From Doris montereyensis (Eukaryota > Mollusca > Gastropoda > Nudibranchia > Dorididae), in the NCBI GenBank assembly GCA_037039925.1, contig JAXRKP010000554.1, positions 118,501 to 182,500 of the forward strand: a DNA stretch of 64,000 nucleotides. Reading direction: 5' to 3'. The number at the start of each line of letters is the position of its first letter. The stretch's first letter is position 1. The notes under the pieces are model-generated. The model was not told where the DNA came from and ran no database searches. It saw only the letters and a program-made list of their open reading frames with translations. Made by a program: the position numbers and the translations under genes. Below, in pieces: positions 49,233-64,000 of the stretch.

Positions 49233-49290
49233 GACAGAGCGGCGGGTTACCGAGCAGGACAGATGTGGGTTCGTGAGCTCTCGCCTTTTT
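49233..49290 (+). other. Possible tRNA-like 5' head
   Basis: The first ~55 bases contain GGTTCG at 49268-49273, like the core of a Pol III B box, about 25 bp after a GGGTTACCGAGCAGG stretch that could be a worn A box. A T5 run (49286-49290) follows, like a Pol III stop. This would fit a SINE head. The match outside GGTTCG is poor, so it may be coincidence or simply a 5' untranslated region. Confidence 0.25.
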
Positions 49291-49351
49291 ATGATTTCAA
49301 GTTTATTTTGTATTTGAACGACATCAACATGCCAGTTAGCGGACTTCAACG

Positions 49352-50230
49352 ATGCTGGAATGTCTTATCAACAGCATTTTAGGAATCTCACTCTCCTCCT
49401 TCAAAGTAGCTGGAAATAAAGAGCGTACTACCCTCGTGCTTCGATTTGATGGCATGGAGATGGCCGACATAAGTGTGTCGACGGGTCATCATTCAACTCC
49501 TTGGCTTCGAAGAAAGTTAAACCTTTAAGTAAGACGAGACAATTTTAGAAAACAACAACACCATACAAGAGTAGTAACTAAGACAGCAACAACATCTACG
49601 AACACGGACTTTATTGAAAATAAAGAAATTCGAAGTGCTGACATTCAACAAACAGACAACAACAACACGGCCTTGGTCCAGAGTGGCGACAGTGCTATCC
49701 ATTTGTTCAGCTGTCAACCGTAACATCGCTCTGACGACACATCTACGATCAGGATTTCGTTGAAAACAAAGAAAATGGAAGTGCTGACATTCAACAAACA
49801 AACAACAACAATTATTGACTCAATCCAGTGTAAGAACAGTGCTATCCATGAATTCAACAACCGTAACATCGCCCCTTTACGACACGTCTATGGTCGGAAA
49901 TACAATCAGTGAATCAAACAAATACGAACAACCTAGAGGACACAGCGACAGATATGAATTAAATCTCGCACAAGTGAGGAAAAAACTCATCCATAAAACC
50001 AACAAGGAGGTAACAGTAATCACAACGCTTTGGTGATTGACGTCAAACAACTTCGCTGTGAAAAAATATGCCTGAAGATCTTCGGAAATCACGATAGACA
50101 CAGGAAGGCATATTACACTGCCAGATCGCAACAAGGACATATTAAAGCTTGTTAGACACATTTCAAACGACATGTTATTCTTGCAGAGACTGATGATCCA
50201 AAATTAAGTATTGCCTTACCAATCAAAGGA
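49352..50230 (+). pseudogene. Broken coding remnant, protein not identified
   Basis: From the ATG at 49352 one frame reads 58 codons to TAA at 49526, containing KVAGNKERTTLVLRFDG. Reading on in frame gives 64 codons to TAA at 49721 (includes ENKEIRSADIQQTDNNN), then 62 codons to TGA at 49910. The same frame later gives KQLRCEKICLKIFGNHDRH near 50045-50100 and ETDDPKLSIALPIKG near 50185-50230. A shifted frame carries DFVENKENGSADIQQT near 49755-49800, KYEQPRGHSDRYELN near 49920-49965 and LPDRNKDILKLVRHISND near 50120-50170. A protein-like reading that hops frames with scattered stops indicates a decayed gene copy. From memory only, it resembles uncharacterised multi-copy mollusc predicted proteins; no function can be assigned. 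Confidence 0.45.
49592..49905 (+). repeat. ~147-bp tandem repeat inside the insertion
   Basis: Two full units (49592-49738, 49739-49883) and the start of a third. Anchors: ACATCTACG at 49592 and 49739, with ACGTCTATG at 49884; GAAGTGCTGACATTCAACAA at 49632 and 49778; CAGTGCTATCCAT at 49690 and 49838. Units are imperfect, with single-base length changes. The encoded motif ENKE..SADIQQT.NNN appears in both units but in different frames, so the repeat was probably coding before frameshifts accumulated. Confidence 0.8.
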
Positions 50231-50728
50231 TAAATACTTCACGTCAAGTAAGCGAAGACAAAACCCATATGCGAAAATGCGTCAACGACATCTGCTTAAT
50301 TGGCAAGACCAGACGATCTGGATTATGGACTCTGGGACCTTTGGAGACCACGTGCATAATATTCTGACATTGCTACCACATCTTAAAAGCTTGATCTTCA
50401 TAACATTGCAAATAATCTATAGAAAGCAAGACTCTGGAACCCATGACTTGTATAGCCAATAATATGCAATCTTTTCATGTTAACATTTTCTTAATAATGT
50501 TTTGTAATTCTCAGATAATTATCAATTTGCCATGGCTTGATTGCTGATTCCTCAACAATGGATGTCATTGCTGTTTGCCCTTTATTTGTATGTTTAAATG
50601 TATTCATTCAAACAAGTTCGACTTTGATATAGATGCATTGATGATCTTTCAAGAATTATTGTATTTATTTTCACTTTAAATACGATATCTGAAATAATGT
50701 CTTCACTTAGTTATTTTGATAAAATTTC

Positions 50729-50734
50729 AATAAA
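50729..50734 (+). promoter_or_regulatory. Polyadenylation signal AATAAA
   Basis: AATAAA about 15 bases before the A-rich stretch, as expected at the end of a polyadenylated transcript. It supports the view that the insertion was copied from an mRNA-like molecule. Confidence 0.65.
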
Positions 50735-50739
50735 ATGTA

Positions 50740-50807
50740 ACAAACAAACAATAAAAAAAACAAAAAATAAATTTAAAAAAAAATTTTAAAAAAATTAAAG
50801 AAAAAAA
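50740..50807 (+). other. A-rich tail of the insertion
   Basis: A degenerate A-rich tract (A runs broken by C and T, with AACAAACAAACAATAAAAA at its start) ending just before the right target-site copy. The decay suggests the insertion is not recent. Confidence 0.7.
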
Positions 50808-50809
50808 CC

Positions 50810-50822
50810 CATTCTAAATCTT
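50810..50822 (+). repeat. Target-site duplication, right copy
   Basis: CATTCTAAATCTT, identical to 49220-49232, followed directly by the normal monomer continuation (T tract, then ACCTTCA). The satellite register is therefore the same on both sides of the insertion. Confidence 0.75.
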
Positions 50823-52256
50823 TTTTTTACCTTCACCTGTGAGCTAAGGACTAACTATAACAGAAAAATTAGAACTCTAGACCTTTTAGTAATTGAGAAA
50901 TTTAAAATATAGCAGAAATGATGTAGCCAACAATAACAAATTCAACAATTTTAATTATTGGTCATGATATGACGTTGAGATTAACTGTAAGATGAAAAAC
51001 AACATTCTAAATATTTTTTTTACCTTCATCTAAGTGAGCTGAGGACTAACTATAACAGAAAAATAAGAAGTTTAGGCCTTTTTAGTAAGTGGGAAATTTA
51101 AAATATAGGAGAAATGATGTAGTCAAAAATGTAACAGATTCAACAATTTTAATTATTGGTCATGATCTGACGTTGAGATTAACTGTAAGATGAAAACTCG
51201 AAATATTTTTGCCTTTTCTACGAACTGAGGATTAACTCCAGCAGAAAAATCAGAACACTAGACCTTATTAGTCAGTGGGAAATTTAAAATATAGGAGAAA
51301 TGATGTAGCCAAAAATCAACAAATTCAACAATTTTAATTATTGGTCATGATATGACGTTGAGATAAACTATAAGATGAAAAACGACATTTTAAATATTAT
51401 TGGTTTACCTTCATCTGTGAGCTGAGGACTACTATAACACAAAAATAAGAACACTAGACCTTTTAGTATGTAGAAATTTAAAATATAGGAGAAATGATGT
51501 AGCCAATAATCAAGAAATTCAACAAATTATTGATCATAATGTGACGTTGAGATAAACTGTAAGATGAAAAACAACATTCTAAATCTTTTTTGTTTCACCT
51601 TCATCTGTGAGCTAAGGACTAACTATAGCAGAAAAAATCAGAAATCTCGACCTTTTTAGTCAGTAGGAAATTAAAAATATAAAGAAATGATGTAGCCAAA
51701 AAAGCAACAAATTCAACCATTTACATTATTGGTCATAATGTGACGTTGAGATAAACTGTAAGATGAAAAACAACATTCTAAATCTTTTTTTGTTTTACCT
51801 TCATCTGTGAGCTGCGGACTAACTATAAAAGAAAATCAGAACATAAAAGAAATGATGCAAGAACAAATTCCAACCATTTACATTATTGGTCATTAATGTA
51901 AGTAAACTGGGAAATTCTAAATCTTTTTTTTATATCTGTGAGCTGCGGACTAGAAAAATCAGAACTCAAGACCTTATTAGTAGCCAAAAATAGCAAAATG
52001 ATGTAGTAAAAAGCAAATTAAACTATTTTAATTATTGGTCATGATATGACGTTGAGATTAACTGTAAGATGAAAAACAACATTGTAAATCTAATTTGTTT
52101 ACCTTCATCTGTGAACTGAGGACTAACGATCCAAGAAAAATCAGAACTCTAGACCTTGTTAGTAAGTGGGAAATTTAAAATATAGGAGAAATTATGTAGC
52201 AACATATTCCGGATTTGTAATTATTGGTCATGATGTGTCGTTGAGATTAACTGTAA
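50823..52256 (+). repeat. Degraded forward satellite before the inversion
   Basis: About seven monomers of the forward family, several shortened. The stretch 51830-52030 is reduced to pieces. The last monomer carries an unusual ATTCCGGATTTGTAATTATTG (52206-52226) where others have AATTCAACCATTTTAATTATTG. No gene. Confidence 0.85.
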
Positions 52257-52262
52257 AATGGT
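52252..52262. other. Satellite orientation switch
   Basis: Forward sequence ends in GATTAACTGTAAAATGG. The next bases, TTGAAATTG, begin a reverse-complement monomer (ACACGATTTCTCC, then TTTAAATTTCC). Forward monomers read TAAGATGAAA here and reverse monomers read TAAAATGGTTGAA, so the join lies within shared TAA.ATG microhomology. No spacer is present. All satellite to the right stays inverted. Confidence 0.85.
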
Positions 52263-55200
52263 TGAAATTGTTTTTTTTTGTTACACGATTTCTCCTCTAT
52301 TTTAAATTTCCTACTGACTAAACAGCTGTAGTTTTATGATTTTTTAGGATAGTTAGTCGTCGGCTCACAGATGGAAGCAAAAAAAATACTTAGAATGTTA
52401 TATTTATCTTACAGTTAATCTCAAGATCTCATCATGACCAATAATTGCAAATCCGGATTTATTGCTTTTTGGCTACATCATTTCTCCTATATTTTAAATT
52501 TCCACTTACTAACAAGGTCTAGAGTTCTCATTTTTCTGTTATAGTTAGTCCGCAGCTCACAGACAAATGTAAATGAAAAAGATTTAGAATGTTGCTTTTC
52601 ATCTTACAGTTAATCTCAACGTCACATCATTAACAATAATTAAATTTCTTGGATTTGTTGCTTTTGGTCACATCATTTCTCGTATATTTTAAATTTCCCA
52701 CTTACTAACAGGGTCTAGAGTTCTGATTTTTCTTTTCATAGTTAGTCCGCAGCTCACAGATAAAAGATAAGGAAAAGATTTAGAATGTTGTTTTTTATCT
52801 TACAGTTTATATCAACGTCATTTCAACCAATAATTAAAATTGTTCAATTTGTCCGTTTTTCTCTACATCATTTCTCTTATCTTTAAATTTGCCAATCACT
52901 AAAAGGTCTAGAGTTCTGATTTTTCTAAGATAATCTTCAGCTCACAAATCACGGTAAACAATTAAATTTAAAATGCTGTTTTTCATCTTACAGTTAATCT
53001 GAACGTCATATCATGACCAATAATTAGAATGGTTGAATTCGTTCCTTTTTGGCTACATCTATTCTCCTATATTTTAAATTTCCCACTCCACTTACTAACC
53101 AATCTAATTAAAATTGTTGAATTTGTCTCTTTTGGCGACATCATTTTGACTATATTTTACATTTCCGACTTACTAAAAATGTTTAGAGTTCTTTTTTTTT
53201 CTGTTATAGTTAGTTTTCAGCTCACAGATGAAGGTAAAATAAAAAGATTTAGAATGTTGTTTTCGATCTTACAGTTAACCTCAACGTCACATCATGACCA
53301 ATAATTAACATTCTTGAATTTGTTGTTTTTTGTGCTATATCATTTCTCCTATATTTCAAATTTTCCACTTACTGACAAGGTGTAGTGTCCTCATTTTTCT
53401 GTTATAGTTAGTCCTCAGTTCACAGATCAAGGTAAAATAAAAAGATTTAGAATGTAGTTTTTCATCTTACAGTTGATCTCAACGTCATATCATGACAAAT
53501 AATTAAAATCGTTGAATTTGTTGCCTTTTTTGCTACATCATTTCTCATATATTTTAAATTTCTCACTTACTGAAATGGCCTAGACTTCTGATGTTTCTTT
53601 TACAGTTATTCCTCAGTTCACAGATAAAGGTAAAAAAAAAAAAAGATTTCAAATACTGCTTTTGGTCTTACAGTTAATCTCAACGTCATATCATGACCAA
53701 TATTTAAAATTGTTGAATTTATTGCTTTTTGGCTACATCATTTCTCCTATATTATAAATTTCCTACTGACTACAAGGGTCTACTGTTCTGATTTTTCTAG
53801 GACAGTTAGTCCTCGGCTCACAGATTAAGATGAAATAAAAAAAATTAAAATGCTAGTTTTCATCTTTACCGTTAATCTCAACGTTTTATCATTACCAATA
53901 ATTAAAATTGTTGAATTTATTGATTTTTGGATACACCATTTATCCTATATCATAAATTTCCTACTGACTAAAAAGCTTTAGTTTTCATCTTACAGTAAAT
54001 CTCAACGTCACATCATGACCAATAATTAAAATTCCGGAATTTTGCTGCATCATTTCTCCTATATTTTAAATTTCCCACTTAGTAACAAGGTCTAGAGTTC
54101 TTTTTTCTGTTATAGTTAGTCCTCAGCTCACAAATGAAGGTAAAAAGAAAGATTTAGAATGTTGCTTTTCATCTTACAGTTAATCTCAACCTCATATCAT
54201 GACCAATAATTAAAATGGTTCAATTTGTTGCTTTTTGGCTACATCATTTCTCTATATTTTAAATTTCCCACTGACAAAAAAAAGGTTTACAGTTCTCATT
54301 TTTCTGGATAGTTAGACCTCGCTCACAGATGAAGGTAAAATCAAAAGATTTAGAACGTTGTTTTTCATCTTACAGTTAATCTCAACGTCATATCAAGACC
54401 AATAATTAAAATTGTTGAATTTGTTACTTTTTGGCTACATCATTTCTCCTATATTTTAAATTTGCCACTCACTAAAAAGGTCTAGAGTTCTTTTTTTCTT
54501 TTATAGTTAGTCCTCAGCTCACAGATGAAGGTAAAAAGATAAGATTTCAAATGTTGCTTTTCATCTTACAGTTAATTCAACGTCATATTACGACAAATAA
54601 TTAAAATGGTTGAATTTGTTGCTTTTTTGGCTACATTTTTTCTCTTATATTTTGAAATTTCCACTGACTAAAAAGGTCTAGATTTCTTATTTTTCTGTTA
54701 TAGTTAGTCCTCAGCTCACATGAAGGTAAAAAAAAAGATTTAAATGTTGCTTTTCATCTTACTATTAATCTCAACGTCATATTACGACTAATAATTAAAA
54801 TGGTTGAATTTGTTGCTTTTTGGCTACATCATTTCTGCTATATTTTCCAATTTCCACTCACTTTTAAATTTCCTATAGTTACCTCAGCTCAACAAGGTCT
54901 AGAGTTCTGATTTTTTTCTTAGAGTTAATCTCAACTCATAGATGAAGGTTAAAACGACTACATCATTTCGCCTATATTTTACATTTCCTACTGACTAAAA
55001 AGGTCTAGAGTTCTGATTTTTCTAAGATAGTTAGTCCTCAGCTCACAGATGAACGTAAAAGAGAATGATTCAGAATATTATTTTTCATCTTAATGTTAAT
55101 CTCAACCTCATATCATGACCAAAAATTTAAATGGTTGAATTGATTGCTTTTTGGCTACATCATTTCTCCTATATTGTAAATTTCCTACTCACTAAAAAGG

Positions 55201-56690
55201 TCTACATGTTCTGATTTTTCTAGGACAGTTAGTCTTCCGCTCACAGATGAAAGTAAAAAAAAATATTTAGAATATTGTTTTCATCTTACAGTTAATCTCA
55301 ACGTTACCTCCTGACCAATAATTAAAACTCCAGAATTTGTTGGCTTTTGGCTAAAACATTTCTCCTATATTTTAAATTTGGCACTTACTAACACGCTGTA
55401 GAGTTCTGATTTTTCTGTTATAGTTAGTCCTCAGCTCACAGATAAAGGTAAAACAAAAGTATTTAGAATGTTACTTTTCATCTTACACGTTTATCTCAAC
55501 GTCATATCATGAACAATTTTTTGGCTAAATCATTTCGCCTATATTTTACATTTCCACTTACTGAAAAGGTCTAGAGTTCATTTTTTTCTGTTATAGTTAG
55601 TTCTCAGCTCACAGATCAAGGAAAATAAAAAAGATTTAGAATATTGCTATTCATCTTACAGTTAATCCCAACGTCATATCATGACCAATAATTAAAATGG
55701 TTTAATTTGTTGCTTTTGGCTACATCATTTCACCTATATATTACATTTCCTACTGACTAAACAGGTCAACTGTTCTATTTTTCTAGGATTGTTAGTCACA
55801 TGTTCACAGATGATTTAGAATATTGTTTTTCCTCTTACAGTTAATCTCAACTCATATCATGACCAATATTTTAAAATTGGTGAATTTGTTTCTTTTTGGC
55901 TACGTCATTTCTTGTATATTTTAAATTTCCTACTTACCAAAAATGTTTACAGTTCTGATTTTTCTAGGATAGTTAGACCTAACCTTACAGATGAAAGTAA
56001 AATCAAAAGATTTAGAAAGTTGTTTTTCATCTACAGTTAATCTGAACGTCATATCGTGACCAATAATTAAAATTGTTGAATTTCTTGCTTTTTGGGTCAA
56101 TCATTTCTTCTATATTTTAAATTTCACAATTACTAAAAAGGTCTAGAGTTCTTATTTTTCTGTTATAGTTAGACCTTAGCTCACAGATGAAAGTAAAAAA
56201 AGATTTAAAATGTTATTTTTCATCTTACAGTTAATCTGAATGTCACATCATGACCAATAATTAAAATTGACGAATTTGTTTCTTTTGGCTACATCATTTC
56301 TCCTATATTTTAAATTTGTCACTGACTAAAAAGGTCTAGAGCTGTTTTTTTCTGTTATAGTTAGTCCTCAACTCATAGATTTAAAATGTTGTTTTCATCT
56401 TACAGTTAATCTCAAACTCACATCATAAACAATAATTAAAATGGTTGAATTTTGGCTTTTTTGACTGTTTCATTTCTCCTATATTTTGAATTTTCCACTT
56501 ACTAAAAAGGTCTAGCGTTCTTATTTTTCTGTTATAGTTAGTCCTGAACTCACAGATGAAGGTATAAGAAAAATATTTCGAATGTTTTTTTTTCGTCTTG
56601 CAGTTAAACTCAACGGCATATCATGAAGAATAATTAAAAGGGTTGAATTTGTTGCTTTTTACTACATCCTTTCTCCTATATTTTGAAAAA
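52262..56690 (-). repeat. Inverted ~198-bp satellite, diverged
   Basis: About 23 reverse-complement monomers: TTGAATTTGTTGCTTTTTGG, CTACATCATTTCTCCTATAT, AGTTAGTCCTCAGCTCACAG, CATCTTACAGTTAATCTCAA, CGTCATATCATGACCAATAA. They are diverged from each other with several partial units (near 53080-53110, 54840-54960, 55510). Some carry TCTAGGACAGTTAGTCCTCGGCTCAC-type sequence, the complement of the left-edge GTCCTAGA form, while keeping the core AACGTCAT form. No higher-order period and no gene is visible. Confidence 0.92.
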
Positions 56691-57165
56691 CTCTAACCCT
56701 ACCCCTAATCCTAACCATAACATTAACTCTAACACTTAACCCTAACCCTAACCCTAACACTAAAACAAAACCCTTAGAACCCTAACCCTAACCCTATCCC
56801 TAACTCAACCTAACCAACCAAACCCTTAATTAACCCAACCTAACCCTAACACTAACCTTAACCCTACACCTAATTCCTAACCGAACACTAACCCTCCCCA
56901 ACCCTAACCATAACCCTAACTCTAACCCTTACCCTAACCCTAACCCTAACCCTAACCTAACCTTTAACCGTAACTCTAACCCTAAACTCCTAACTTTCCC
57001 TAACTCTAACCCGAAATCTCAACCCTAATCCTAACCCTAATTAAAATCCTAACGCTAACACTAACCCTTGCCCTAACCCTAACCCTAATCCCAACCCCAA
57101 ACCCTAACCCTAACCCTAAACCTAACCCCAACCCTAACCCTAACCTAACCCTCACCCTAACCCTC
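56691..57165. repeat. Telomere-type block 1 (CCCTAA)
   Basis: Degenerate CCCTAA hexamers on the + strand (TTAGGG on -), with variants CTCTAA, CACTAA, CCTTAA and ACCTAA and irregular spacing. It starts directly after the satellite sequence CTCCTATATTTTGAAAAA and ends at ACCCTCAGACAAATGCTAGTCC. The degeneracy shows old interstitial repeats, not a functional chromosome end. Confidence 0.93.
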
Positions 57166-57519
57166 AGACAAATGCTAGTCCTCAGCTCACAGATGAAGGT
57201 AAAAAAACGATTTAGAATGTTTTTTTCATCTCACAGTTTATGTCAACGTCATATCATGACCAATAATCAAAATTGTTGTATTTGTGGCTTTTTGTCTACA
57301 TCATGTCTCCTATATTTTAATTTCCACTTACTACAAAGGTCTAGAGTTCTGATTTTTCTGTTATAGTTAGTCCTCAACTCAATGATTAAAGTAAAAGAAA
57401 AAAATTAGAATGTTGATTTTTTGTCTTACAGTTAATCTCAACGTGATATCATGACCAATAATTAAAATGGTTGAATTTGTTGCTTTTTGGCTACATTCTT
57501 TCTCCTATATTTTAAATAA
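57166..57519 (-). repeat. Satellite spacer between telomere blocks 1 and 2
   Basis: Just under two inverted monomers, from GCTAGTCCTCAGCTCACAG to CTCCTATATTTTAAATAA. It has a distinctive TCACAGTTTATGTCAACGTC and TTGTGGCTTTTTGTCTACAT, which recur in the spacer at 61063-61413, showing the two are copies. Confidence 0.9.
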
Positions 57520-58676
57520 CTCTAACCCTAACCCTAATCGTAACCATAACCCTAAGTCCTAACCCTAACCCTAACCCTAACCCTAACCCTAACCCTAACC
57601 CTATCCTAAAACTAACCCTAACCCTAACTCTACCCCTAACCCTAACCAATAAACCTAAACCCTAAACCTAAACCTAACCTAACCCTAACCCTAGGCCTAA
57701 CCCTAACTTAACCCTAACTTAACTAAACCCTAACTCTAACCCTACCCTAAACCTCTAACTCTAACCCTAATCCTAACCTGAACCCTAACCCTAACCCCAA
57801 CCCTAACCATAACCAACTCTAACCCATAACCCTAACCCTAACCTTAACCTTAACATTAACCCTGACCTAAACCTCAACCTAACCCTAACCCTAACCCTAA
57901 CCCTAACCAACCCTAACCTTAACCTAACCCTAACCCTAACACTAACCCCAACCCTAACCTTAACCCTAACCCTAACCCTAACCCTAATCTTAAACCTAAC
58001 CATAACCCTAACCCTTCTTTAACCCTAACCTAACTTTACCTTAACCCTAACCCTAACCCTAACCCTAACCTAACCCTAACCCTAACCCTAACCCTAACCT
58101 AACCCACAACCCTAACCCTAACCCTAACCCTAACCCTTACCTTAACCCTAACCCTAACCCTAACCCTAACCCTAACCCTAACCCTAACCCTAACCTTAAC
58201 TTTAACCCTAACCCTAACCCTAACCCTAACCCTAACCTTAACCTAACCTAACCCTAACCCTAACCTCAAACCCTAACCATAACCCTAACTCTAACCTCTT
58301 ACCCTAACGCTAACCATAAGCCTAACCTTAAACCTAACCTTAACCCTAAACCCTAAACCTAACCCTAACATCTAACCCTAACCTCAAACATATAACCCTA
58401 ATCCTAACCCTAACCCTAAACCTAACCCTAACCCTAATCCTAACGCTAACCCCAACCATTACTCTAACGCTAACCCTAACCCTAACCCTAATTTTTCTAA
58501 CCCTAACCCTAACCCTAACCCAAAACCCTAACCCTAACCCTAACCCTAAACCTAACCCTAACGCTAACCTCATTCATCCCAACCCTAATCCTAACCCTAA
58601 CCCTAACCCTAATCCGAACCCCATCCCTAGCCCTAACTCTAACCCTTCCTTGAACCTAACCCTAACCCTAACCCTC
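57520..58676. repeat. Telomere-type block 2 (CCCTAA), longest
   Basis: About 1.16 kb of CCCTAA-type hexamers on the + strand. Runs are most regular near 58035-58200, with variants (CTCTAA, CCTTAA, CCCCAA, ACCTAA) throughout. It begins after CTATATTTTAAATAA and ends at ACCCTCAAGCTAGTCCTCAG. Long open frames on the minus strand reading VRVRVR or LGLGLG are translations of the hexamer, not genes. Confidence 0.95.
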
Positions 58677-60560
58677 AAGCTAGTCCTCAGCTCACAGATG
58701 AAGGTAAAAGAAAAGATTTAGAATTTTGCTTTTCATCTTACAGTTAAGATCAATCTCATATCATGACCAATAATTAAAATTGTTGAATTTGGTTTTTTTT
58801 GACTACATCATTTCTCCTATATTTTAAATGTCCTACTGACTAAAAAACCCTATAGTTCTGATTTTTTCTAGGATAGTAAGTCCTCAGCTCACAGATGAAG
58901 GTGAAAAAAAAATTTAGAATGTTGTTTTTCATTTTACAGTTATCTCAACGTCCCATATCACTACCAATAATTAAAATGGTTGAATTTGTTGCTTTTTGGC
59001 TACATCATTTCTCTTATATTTTGAATTTTCCCACTTACTAAAAAGGTCTAGAGTCATGATTTTTCTGTTATAGTTGTCCTCCTTTTACAAGATGAAGGTA
59101 AAAAAAAAGATTTATTTAGAATGTTATTTTTCATGTTTATCTCAACGTCATATCATGACCAATTTTTGGCTACATCATTTCGCTTATATTTTACATTTCC
59201 ACTTACTGAAAAGGTCTAGTGTTCATTTTTTTTTGTTATGATTAGTTCTCACTCACAGATGAAGGAAAAATAAAAAGATTAAGAATATTGCTATCCATCT
59301 TGCAGTTAATCCCAACGTCATATCATGACCAATGATTAAAATGTTTAATTTGTTGCTTTTTGGCTACATCATTTCTCCTATATTTTACATTTCCTACTGA
59401 CTAAAAAGGTCAGCAGTTCTTTTTTTTCTAGGATAGTTAGTCCTCAGTTCACATATGAGGGGCACAAAAAAAGATTTTGAATATTGTTTTTCCTCTTACA
59501 GTTAATCTCAACGTCATATCATGACCAATATTTAAAATTGTTGAATTTGTTGCTTTTTGGCTACATCATTTTCGTCTATTTTAAATTTCCTACTTACTAA
59601 AAAGGTTTATAGTTCTGATGTTTCTAGGATAGTTAGACCTCATCTTACACATGAATGTAAAATCAAAAGATTTAGAATGTTGTTTTTCATCTTACAGTTA
59701 ATCTCAAAGTCATATTATAAGCAATAATTAAAATTGTTGAATTTCTTGCTTTTTGGGTCAATCATTTCTTCTATATTTTACATTTCCCAATTACTAACGA
59801 GGTCTAGAGTTCTGATCTTTCTGTTATAGTTAGTCCTTAGCTCAGATATGAAGATTTAAAATGTCATTTTTCATCTTACAGTTAATCTGATTGTCACATC
59901 ATGACCAATAATTAAAATTGACGAATTTGTTTCTTTTTGGCTACATCCTTTCTCCTATATTTTAAATTTGTCACTTACTAAAAAAGGTGTAGAGCTCTTT
60001 TTTTCTGTTATAGTTAGTCCTCAACTCATAGATGAAGGTAAAAGAAAAAGATTTAGAATGTTGCTTTTCGTCTTACAATAAATCTCAAAGTCATATCATG
60101 ACCAATAATAAAATGGTTGAATTTGTTGTTTTTTTGGTTACATCATTTCTCCTATATTTTAAATTTCCAACTCATTAGAAAGGTCTACAGGTCTGATTTT
60201 TCAAGGACATTATTCATCAGCTCACAGATAAAGGTAAAACAAAAAAAAGATTTAAAATGTTGTTTTTAACTTACAGTTAATCTCAACATCACATCATGAC
60301 CAATATTTAAAATGGTTGAATTTTTTACTTTTTGACTGTTTCTTTCTCCTATATTTTGAATTTTCCACTTACTAAAAGGTCTAGCGTTCTGATTTTTCTG
60401 TTATAGTTAGTCCTGAACTCACAGATGAAGGTATATGAAAAATATTTCGAATGTTTTTTTTTAATCTTGCAGTTAAACTCAACGTCATATCATGAAGAAT
60501 AATTAAAACGGTTGAATTTGTTGCTTTTTGGTTACATGATTTCTCCTATATTTTGAATAA
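58677..60560 (-). repeat. Inverted satellite between telomere blocks 2 and 3
   Basis: About 10 inverted monomers. Several match 55500-56690 in order, for example the TTTTTTGGCTA-ATCATTTCGC partial unit at 55515 and 59163, TTTTTGGGTCAATCATTTCTT at about 56090 and 59752, and AAATTGACGAATTTG at about 56262 and 59916. This is part of the ~3.9-kb segmental duplication. No gene. Confidence 0.9.
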
Positions 60561-61062
60561 CTCTAACCCTACCCCTAATCCTAACCATAACATTAACTCT
60601 AACACTAACCCTAACCCTAACCCTAACACTAACCCTAACCCTAAACCTAACCCTAACCCTAAACCTAACCCTATCCCTAACTCTAACCCTAACTCTAACC
60701 CTAACCCTTACCGTAACCCTAACCCTAACCCTAACACTAACCTTAACCCTACACCTAATTCCTAACCGAACACTAACCCTAACCCCAACCCTAACCATAA
60801 CCCTAACTCTAACCCTTACCTAACCCTAACCCTAACCCTAACCAACTAACCTTAACCTAACTCTAACCCTAAACTCTAACCCTAACCCTATCCTAACTCT
60901 AACCCGAAACCTCACCTAATCCTAACCCTAACCCTAACCCTAACCCTAATCTAACGCTTTTAACCCTACCCTAACCCTAACCTAATCCTAATCCCAACCC
61001 TAACCCTAACCCTAAACCTAACCCCAACTTTAACCCTAACCCTAACCTTAACCCTAACCCTC
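60561..61062. repeat. Telomere-type block 3 (copy of block 1)
   Basis: CCCTAA-type hexamers beginning with the same irregular series as block 1 (CTCTAACCCTACCCCTAATC, then CATAACATTAACTCTAACAC). The block ends with the same CCCTCAGACAAATGCTAGTC as block 1. Shared irregularities show duplication of the whole block, not independent telomere addition. Confidence 0.93.
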
Positions 61063-61413
61063 AGACAAATGCTAGTCCTCAGCTCACAGATGAAGGTAAA
61101 AAAACGATTTAGAATGTTTTTTTTATCTCACAGTTTATGTCAACGTCATATCATGACCAATAATTAAAATTGTTGTATTTGTGATTTTTGTCTACATCAT
61201 GTCTCCTATATATTGAATTTCACTTACTAAAAGGTCTAGAGTTCTGATTTTTTTGTTATAGTTAGTCCTTAACTCAATGATTAAAGTAAAAGAAAAAAAT
61301 TAGAATGTTGATTTTTGTCTTACAGTTAATCTCAACGTGATATCATGACCAATAATTAAAATGGTTGAATTTGTTGCTTTTTGGCTACATTCTTTCTCCT
61401 ATATTTTAAATAA
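61063..61413 (-). repeat. Satellite spacer between telomere blocks 3 and 4
   Basis: Copy of the spacer at 57166-57519, sharing CAGACAAATGCTAGTC, TCTCACAGTTTATGTCAACG and the AACTCAATGATTAAAGTAAA variant. Confidence 0.9.
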
Positions 61414-62092
61414 CTCTAACCTAACCCTAATCGTAACCATAACCCTAAGTCTAACCCAACCCTAACCCTAACCCTAACCCTAACCCTAACCCTAACCCTA
61501 TCCCAAAACTAACCCTAACCCTAACTCTACCCCTTTAACCCTAACCATAAACCTAATCCCTAAACCTAAACCTAACCCTAACCCTAACCTAACCTAGGCC
61601 TAAACCCTAACCCTAACCCTAACCTTACCCCAACCCTAACCCTAACCCTACCCTTAAACCCTAACTCTAACCCTAATCCTAACCCGAACCCTAACCCTAA
61701 CCCCAACCCTAACCATAACCGTAACTCTAACCCTTACCCTAACCCTAACCTTAACCTTAACATTAACCTGAATCCCTAAACCCTCAACCTAACCCCTAAC
61801 CCTAACCCTAACCCTAACCCTAACCCTAAACCTAATCCTAATCCTAACCCTAACCCTTAACACTAACCCAAACCCTAACCTTAACCCTAACCCCAACCCT
61901 AACCCTAACCAAACCTAACCCTAATGCTAACCCTAACCCTTAACCCTTAACCCTAACCCTAACTTTACCCTAACCCTAACCCTAACCCTAATCCTTAACC
62001 CTAACTCCTTAACCGTAACCCTAACCCCAATTCTAACCCTAACCCTAACCCTTAACCCTAACCTATAACTATCCTAACCCTAAGCCTAACCT
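61414..62092. repeat. Telomere-type block 4 (shortened copy of block 2)
   Basis: Starts like block 2 (CTCTAACC, then CCTAATCGTAACCATAACCC) and shares CAAAACTAACCCTAACC and AACCTAGGCCTAA-like irregularities near 61600. It is about 480 bp shorter. It ends at CTAACCTCTTCTTCAGCTCAC, a worn form of the usual exit junction. Confidence 0.92.
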
Positions 62093-62262
62093 CTTCTTCA
62101 GCTCACAGATTTTTCTAACAAGATCAATCTATATCATGACCTTTAAGTACTAACCTAACCCTAAAACATTTAACTGGTTAATTAAAATGGTTGAATTTGT
62201 TGCATAATTTGAAATTGCTAACTCTTTTGGCTAATTTTACATTTCCACTTACTTTTATCATT
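62093..62262 (-). repeat. Mixed satellite and telomere fragments
   Basis: Short pieces of inverted satellite (CAGCTCACAGAT, ATATCATGACC, TTAAAATGGTTGAATTTGTT, TTACATTTCCACTTACTTTT) broken up by CTAACC strings near 62150. The order of satellite landmarks is kept but segments are missing. Confidence 0.75.
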
Positions 62263-62510
62263 TAACCCTAACCCTAACCCTACCCTAACCCTAACCCTTT
62301 AACTCCTAAACCTTTCCTAACTTACCCTAACCCTAAAAATGTCTATCCCTAACCTAACCCGTTAACCCTAATCCTAACCCTAACCCTAACCCTAACCTAA
62401 CCCTAACCCCAACCCTAATAACCCTAAACCTAACCCATCCTAACCTTAACCCTAACAGCCTAACCCTAACCCTAGCCCTACCTCTAAACCTAACCCAACC
62501 TAACTTATCC
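62263..62510. repeat. Telomere-type block 5 (CCCTAA)
   Basis: About 250 bp of irregular CCCTAA-type repeats on the + strand, entered from TTACTTTTATCATTTAACCC and followed by ATTATAAATGCTAGTCC. The entry junction lies later in the monomer than for blocks 1-4. Confidence 0.88.
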
Positions 62511-62728
62511 CAAATTATAAATGCTAGTCCTAACAGATGAAGGTAAAAAAAGATTTAGACTAATTTTAAAATTAAAATGGTTAAATTTGTTGCCTAGAAT
62601 TAGAATTTTGAATTTGTTACTTTCATCTTACAGTTAATTCTAAACAGTCACATCATGACCAATAATTTAAAAAAGCATTGAATTTTGTTACTTTTTGGCT
62701 ACATTCTTATCTCCTATAATTTGAATAA
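62511..62728 (-). repeat. Satellite spacer between telomere blocks 5 and 6
   Basis: About one inverted monomer plus fragments, from GCTAGTCCTAACAGATGAAGG to CTCCTATAATTTGAATAA. TTGAATTTTGTTACTTTTTG and ACATCATGACCAATAATT are recognisable. It is damaged but keeps the same exit and entry phases as the other spacers. Confidence 0.85.
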
Positions 62729-63334
62729 CTCCCTAACCCTAATCCTAACCCTAACCTAAACGTCACATAACCCTTTAAACTTAAAAATCCTAACCTTACC
62801 CCTAATCCTAACCATAACCCTAAAACCCTAACCCTAAACCTAACCCTAACCGTAACCCTAACCCTAACCCTAACCCTAACCCTAACTGTAACCCTACCTA
62901 ACCTTAACCCTACCCCTAAACCTAATCCTAACCCAAACCGTAACCCTAACCCTAACCCTAACCCTAACCATAACCCTAACCTCAACCCTAAACCTTAACC
63001 CTAACTCTTATCCTAACCCTTACACTAAACCTAAACTAATCCTAACCCTAACCTAAGTTTAACCTAATCCCTACCCTAACGCTAACCCTAACCCTAACCC
63101 TAATTCTAACCCCAACCCTGAGCCAAACCTAACCCTAATCTAATCCTAACCCTAACCCTAACCCTAACCCTAACCTTAACCCTAACGCTAACCCGAACCC
63201 TAACCCTAACCCTAACCCTAACCCTAATCCTAACCCTAAGCATAACCTAAACCCTAACCCTAGCCCTAACCCTAACCCTAACCCTAACCCTAACCCTAAC
63301 CCTAACCCTAACCTAACCCTAACCCTAATCCTAA
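62729..63334. repeat. Telomere-type block 6 (CCCTAA)
   Basis: About 600 bp of CCCTAA hexamers with variants. The most regular run is about 63260-63310. It starts after TTTGAATAACTC and ends at CCTAATGCTAGTTCTCAC. A single-phase minus-strand open frame of LGLGLG repeats crosses it and is not a gene. Confidence 0.94.
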
Positions 63335-64000
63335 TGCTAGTTCTCACCTAACAGATCAAGGCAAAAAAATGTTGCTTTTTCATTTGACAGTTTATCTCAA
63401 CGTCATATCATGACCAATACTTAAGTTGTTCAATTTGTTAACTTTTTTTGACATTATTTCTCTTATAACCTAATTTCCTAACCTGACTTAAAAGGTCTAA
63501 CCTGATTTTAAGGATAGTTAATGCTCTGCTCACACCTAAAGGGAGGCAAACCCCAACCTTTAAAATGTTGTTTTTTATCTCACAGTTTATCTCAACCTCA
63601 TATCGTGACCAATAATTAAAATTGTTGAATTTGTTGTTTTTTGGCCCTCATTTCTCCTAATTTTAAATTAACCTACTGACTAAAAACCTAATCCTTTAAC
63701 CTAATTTTTCTAGAATCGTTACCTAACCTCCACACATGAAGATCAAAAAGAACCTTTAGAATGTAACCTTTTCATCTAACCCTTAACCGCAACCCGAACA
63801 TCATGACCAATAATTAAAATTCTTGAATTTCTTACTTTTTTGCTACATCATTTCTTCTATTTTTTAAATTTTCCACTTAACTAAAAAGTTATAAGTTTGG
63901 ATTTTTCTGTTAGAGTTAACCTGAGCTCACACATGAAGGTAAAATAAAAGATTTAGAATGTTGTTTTTCATCATACAGTTTATCCCTAACGTTTCATCCT
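63335..64000 (-). repeat. Inverted satellite with scattered CCTAA strings
   Basis: Just over three inverted monomers to the window end. Between about 63468 and 63795 short CCTAA or TAACC strings sit at positions where neighbouring monomers have T-rich or other sequence (for example ATAACCTAATTTCCTAACC, GGTCTAACCTGATTTT, CATCTAACCCTTAACC). From about 63800 the monomers are normal again. No gene. Confidence 0.85.

Follow-up and report, generated by a model that had tools for sequence, protein, structure and literature searches.

Telomere repeats embedded in other DNA have been described in several systems. Short interstitial telomeric sequences (ITSs) at double-strand breaks in primates, rodents and the horse have lost flanking bases (in the horse at 20 of 66 loci, 30.3%), and their joins show short in-register matches (PMC7215372). 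Heterochromatic ITSs of the Chinese hamster span 250-500 kb and combine conserved with degenerate telomere repeats in repetitive DNA (PMC13403905). In potato, the subtelomeric satellites CL14 and CL34 (monomers of 182 and 339 bp) are joined directly to telomere repeats through varied, incomplete monomers at chromosome ends (PMC3276127), and in other ITS clusters degenerate telomere motifs are interspersed with another repeat (reviewed in PMC9498494). Here we describe a related arrangement in the nudibranch Doris montereyensis, where the last 7.3 kb of a 64,000-nucleotide stretch (the window; positions 118,501 to 182,500 of contig JAXRKP010000554.1, hereafter C3007) hold six worn CCCTAA blocks, A to F, within a 197-bp satellite. 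A literature search turned up no account of this satellite, a result on which we base no claim about what is in print.

The window shares features with each of these systems. Its blocks are interstitial, with satellite on both sides and a position internal to a 275-kb contig, a status that refers to place within the contig and not to cytogenetic position. As in short break-repair ITSs, telomere repeats stand in other DNA, flanking sequence has been lost (about 43-45 bp of monomer) and the joins show short in-register matches; in contrast to them, the window tracts measure 263-1161 bp, lie in a satellite and belong to a joined unit that has been copied (PMC7215372). Telomere repeats that are partly conserved and partly degenerate, in a repetitive setting, also recall the Chinese hamster (PMC13403905), but the window blocks are short, against tens to hundreds of kilobases for heterochromatic ITSs, and are placed by sequence only. 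The direct join of satellite to telomere repeats is found in potato as well, although in the window one join is repeated within one contig and all blocks are internal to C3007 rather than terminal; two other joins in the same genome, on contigs C1773 and C2634, come nearer to the potato case (PMC3276127). Relative to the reviewed ITS clusters, the fixed phase and the copy history are resolved in the window (PMC9498494). Altogether, the composite of satellite and telomere repeats in the window is local and looks real, and its repeated phase comes mainly from the copying of a few old insertions. The best reading, to which we assign a probability of about 0.68, is a rare telomeric insertion, probably made by break repair, followed by copying through satellite exchange.

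Satellite phase of the telomere blocks

C3007 is 275,307 bp long and belongs to an assembly of 513 Mb in 3,500 contigs; our genome-wide statements cover the readable part of that assembly, as some of the fetched sequence consisted of N and was unusable. A 197-bp monomer consensus was built from 35 monomers, with phases (0-based) counted from AGCTCACAG, and joins were mapped by aligning the window to the cyclic monomer plus a cyclic CCCTAA unit. A sequence-only reading of the window had proposed that five of the six blocks start at the same monomer point, and had advised aligning the junctions to a consensus. The alignment bore this out for five of the six left joins: in A, B, C, D and F the monomer gives way to CCCTAA after phase 140 (at 56688, 57516, 60557, 61410 and 62725, respectively), whereas block E, unlike the other five, exits the monomer at phase 157 (about 62258).

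All features of this region lie on the plus strand. Block A (56689-57171) is followed by a satellite spacer running from phase 184 to 140 (57172-57516), block B (57517-58677) by a spacer from phase 186 to 140 (58678-60557) and block C (60558-61068) by another from phase 184 to 140 (61069-61410). Block D (61411-62094), whose right join is worn, gives way to scrambled satellite with telomere fragments (62095-62257, match 0.71), after which come block E (62258-62520), a scrambled spacer ending at phase 140 (62521-62725), block F (62726-63333) and satellite with telomere-like pieces inserted (63334-64000, match 0.81).

The proposal that all six blocks also end at one monomer site was upheld in part. 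The right joins fall at phase 184 in A, C and F and at phase 186 in B, and GCTAGT stands at five of the six right joins; at D, however, GCTAGT is absent and the worn join aligns to phase 192, and the right join of E was scored at phase 5, even though ATGCTAGTCC is present there (62521), a string that A and C carry too. GCTAGT occurs only once elsewhere on the plus side (53852), in a different phase, and on the minus-orientation side it was not found, against 172 copies of GTTAGT. A monomer segment is indeed missing at the blocks, slightly smaller at about 43-45 bp than the 45-50 bp first suggested. The right join adjoins GTTAG (phases 187-191), the only monomer 5-mer that matches the telomere repeat, and the array of block F, read by eye, is in hexamer register starting from this word.

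The satellite monomers at 62.1-64.0 kb (62095-62725 and 63334-64000) are scrambled by CCTAACC-like pieces, as would result from strong decay or from poor consensus; caution applies to blocks E and F and to D at its right join.

Copy history of the composite

Self-comparison of the window revealed a tandem duplication with a unit of about 3.9 kb, in which 54956-58568, carrying A and B, aligns on the plus strand with 58801-62504, carrying C and D (3,822 alignment columns, 81.9% alike, with 327 gaps). The joined unit thus stands in tandem with both joins kept, as A+B and C+D; the composite unit is seen in these two copies, and the third stretch, with E and F, is not assigned to a copy. Substitutions between the copies amount to 1.5-6.0% from 56500 on and to 5.1-16.9% to the left of that point. 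Likeness of A to C and of B to D greatly exceeded that of unit-shuffled arrays (z of 17.6 and 15.9; in a second comparison, 22.7 and 22.3). Substitution variants in the A/C and B/D arrays were mostly shared (42 of 55, 40 of 47, 42 of 52 and 44 of 52; 76-85%) and indels mostly were not (6-8 of 16-27; 22-50%), so that the substitutions look inherited and many of the indels look like recent changes or sequencing noise. Block C is a copy of A and block D a copy of B, made by the duplication of about 3.9 kb.

An older relation between the two pairs is suggested by their array starts. When A and C were compared with B and D, the first 60 bp were in register, with no better match among 300 shuffles in any of the four pairs; at 100 bp the counts were 0, 0, 0 and 1 of 300, and at 150 bp 0-8. 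A and B may therefore share the first 60-100 bp of their arrays by common origin, for which the support is modest. The flank mark ACATTCTT precedes the left joins of B, D and F and occurs once elsewhere on the plus side (53308); on the minus side it is not found, against 177 copies of ACATCATT.

Copying of one block from another is thus the main reason why the blocks have a common phase. The sequence-only reading had counted the five left joins as if they were independent, and the number of founding joins behind the six blocks would effectively be one to about three, not six. Its central proposal, one founding join that was then amplified, fits the descent of C from A and of D from B and, with modest strength, the link between A and B; for the genome as a whole it gives way to several founding joins.

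The array and other joins in the assembly

The left join of the window was sought across the assembly with up to one mismatch and gave nine matches, four of them in C3007; the five scattered one-mismatch matches elsewhere compare with four in a control and were taken as chance on that ground, their surroundings being left unread. A degenerate left-join pattern matched four times, always in C3007 (A-D; F falls outside the pattern), and a degenerate right-join pattern three times, again only in C3007, where it detects B (twice) and D and misses A, C, E and F, so that absence of the right join elsewhere is less sure. The satellite itself is common, with 1,816 matches of the right-join word at up to one mismatch. 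GCTAG had seemed a private mark of the window join, which proved only partly right: GCTAGTCCTCAGCTCACAG has 14 exact copies in the genome, three in C3007 and 11 outside, and all 11 outside copies lie in satellite without telomere repeats within the stretch fetched. The expectation of many loci with the identical join was not borne out, and we rejected the idea that the window composite is a dispersed family; with its left join found only in C3007, it is local in the readable assembly.

Joins of other kinds do occur. A list of pure telomere runs, each 27 bases or longer, which represents only arrays containing such a run, comprises 80 starts in 26 contigs, each read in part (in C1060, C1746, C1790, C1822 and C2540 no proper flank was seen, and some of the sequence was N). 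Satellite adjoins telomere repeats in six of these 26 contigs, C3007 included. The other five, C786 (L026), C1773 (L031), C1978 (L035), C2163 (L037) and C2634 (L036), carry a second composite in another satellite subfamily (family ii), with a double join in which a telomere tract of 34-41 bp at CTAA (join at about phases 152-157, the word itself at 152-155) is followed by about 20 bp of monomer and then, starting at phase 175, by a CCCTAA array. Across the assembly, a search for either join led to these five sites and no others, and near the join variant telomere repeats follow one another in largely the same order in all five contigs; unlike the window composite, this one is dispersed. The satellite flanks of family ii are 88.3-98.7% alike (at least 94% in 6 of 10 pairs) and 83-86% like the window satellite. 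Since displacing the flanks by one, two or three monomers often left identity equal or raised it, flank likeness by itself is no proof of a copied block; the join pair and the variant order common to five contigs indicate that such joins do get copied in this genome.

We also considered whether the window blocks derive from family ii. Block B gave z values of 5.4 and 6.1 against two family ii arrays, but join-anchored alignment lent no support, the likeness of A or B to family ii arrays being matched by 20-120 of 300 shuffles, and we make no claim for this derivation. By eye, erosion of the family ii CTAA join could have given the window left join AATAACTCTAACCC.

In C1773 (1-2082; L030) and C2634 (13246-15938; L063/L057) the satellite stops at GTTAG and TTAGGG repeats continue to the record end, in the orientation of a natural chromosome end. 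These two joins have the form of terminal telomeres, although several records have round-number sizes and the record ends may be artificial. The internal block of C1773 ends at phase 83, a join found nowhere else with the pattern used. In C2886 (186069-187043; L041), a 32-bp tandem repeat unrelated to the 197-bp satellite is interrupted at a single phase by two CCCTAA blocks, 280 and 379 bp in length; the spacers are 88-92% alike. Telomere repeats were thus captured and copied more than once, in unrelated repeats. At C3127:142507-142660 (L042), a short TTAGGG tract has flanks that look like inverted copies (CGTCTATA and TATAGACG).

Six join types were seen in the 197-bp satellite, at phases 140, 184-186, about 152-157, 175, GTTAG (187-191) and 83. 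Joins at several phases imply several founding joins, of which those present in more than one copy were copied. The sequence-only reading had set a shared phase against junctions scattered over all monomer phases. Junctions outside the window do lie at other phases (about 152-157 together with 175 in five contigs, GTTAG in two and 83 in one), while five of the six types fall within phases 140-191, a raw count over few and partly linked types. This clustering in one monomer segment may be a hint of a preferred landing place.

The remainder of the window is largely satellite. The array occupies most of 403-52253 on the minus strand, as a long stretch without telomere blocks (403-49232; cyclic alignment with match 0.91, and Tandem Repeats Finder) and a shorter one (50803-52253) beyond a non-satellite insert, and continues on the plus strand from 52254 to 56688, where it meets left join A at phase 140. 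The orientation flips at 52253/52254, and every telomere block lies on the plus side, 4.4 kb past the flip; the first 56.6 kb of the window contain isolated telomere words of 6-7 bases and no array. The insert (49233-50802, 1.57 kb) has an A-rich end and a 13-bp direct repeat, CATTCTAAATCTT, on both flanks, resembling what a retroposed element would leave. Neither the insert nor the whole window contains an open reading frame (ORF) of at least 120 amino acids, and an Rfam scan of the window gave no matches. Outside the array, C3007 is non-satellite on the left and on the right, where readable; a receptor-like ORF to the left of the array has a 7tm_1 match under the Pfam cut-off and no match at E 0.001 among 116 candidates.

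Origin of the composite

We propose that a satellite monomer captured a piece of telomeric DNA, most likely when a double-strand break was repaired with the loss of some 43-45 bp. The joined unit would then have been copied within the array by tandem duplication and by unequal exchange, the usual mode of satellite multiplication. One such duplication, of about 3.9 kb, is seen directly, and an earlier copying step between A and B, in either direction, is likely; separate captures elsewhere in the genome were also copied (family ii in five contigs; the 32-bp repeat with two blocks). This account builds on direct observations, namely the fixed phase, the duplication, a left join private to C3007 and several founding joins in the genome. 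The locus would behave as a break-repair ITS that satellite turnover has multiplied, its membership of that class being argued from the lost flank. Function need not be assumed for the composite.

Several observations weigh against this account. The array link between A/C and B/D fades at 250 bp (2-18 of 300 shuffles), and an unrelated array, C126, also scored low counts (against A, 4 of 300 at 60 bp and 0 of 300 at 100 bp; against B, 1 and 3 of 300), which is why we regard the A-B link as only modest. The monomers directly left of A and B show a likeness no greater than usual (0.151; medians for typical pairs, 0.175 and 0.159). In the shuffle test the array of block F had no homology in register with that of A or B, and block E none in the unit-shuffled comparison; the left phase of E (157), moreover, differs from that of the other five.

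Among the alternatives, the one we take most seriously, while still considering it unlikely, is a preferred acceptor site, in which telomere-like words (GTTAG at 187-191, CTAA at 152-155) steer telomere addition or end joining to the same place time and again, and a segment at about 140-191 captured telomeric DNA several independent times, as internal blocks and as end caps. The sequence-only reading had likewise offered a site-specific break in this segment as its alternative. The right join of the window next to GTTAG, the register of block F from that word, the family ii joins at CTAA and phase 175, the terminal-type joins of C1773 and C2634 at GTTAG and the position of five of six join types within 140-191 would all fit. 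The join types are few, however, and partly linked as two sides of one insertion; neither the left join (phase 140) nor the join of C1773 at phase 83 touches a 4-mer telomere word, and 43 of the 197 monomer positions lie within one base of such a word. A standing acceptor also sits poorly with a left join found nowhere else despite a common satellite. The terminal-type joins, which reach the same GTTAG from the other side, may also be read as pointing to an internalized chromosome end, in which the right join is a healed broken monomer that became internal once satellite was joined outside it, and the order of CCCTAA followed by satellite is that of a left chromosome end. We consider this improbable: C3007 has non-satellite sequence on both sides of the array where readable, including the receptor-like ORF on the left, the left joins require a second event, and the record ends that serve as the model may be artificial.

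The quality of the assembly bears on a further explanation, that the blocks or their repetition arose from misjoined or badly called long reads. The long telomere arrays of C786 and C2634 (L027, L028 and L036) contain CTTCTT, CCTGG and TTAAAA-type words and TTTTAA runs, and the first three kinds have been described as nanopore miscalls (PMC9414165), which the TTTTAA runs resemble too; from these errors we infer that the assembly is nanopore-based. The scrambled satellite with CCTAACC pieces and the largely unshared indels fit poor reads as well. In the window blocks, however, CTTCTT occurs twice and CCCTGG not at all, the joins of A-D are clean, A/C and B/D share substitution variants, and near the blocks the copies have diverged by 1.5-6%, which would not be expected of a false exact duplication; together these make an artefact a poor explanation. 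The least credible of all is independent random insertion or healing at every block. Only block E, with its left join at another phase, speaks for it, and the shared phase in five of six blocks and the copy relations of A/C and B/D rule it out for A-D; the sequence-only reading was right that random events would not pick one phase repeatedly.

Insertion followed by satellite exchange, our preferred reading, makes the composite a clear new example of an already known process, in which an ITS is copied together with its satellite. It provides a worked case in which satellite turnover turns a rare insertion of telomere repeats into a repeated composite, and a warning that the resulting copies are not to be counted as independent events. 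If the acceptor-site explanation were true, the satellite would offer new telomeres a permanent and predictable place to land, and array turnover would spread the captures.

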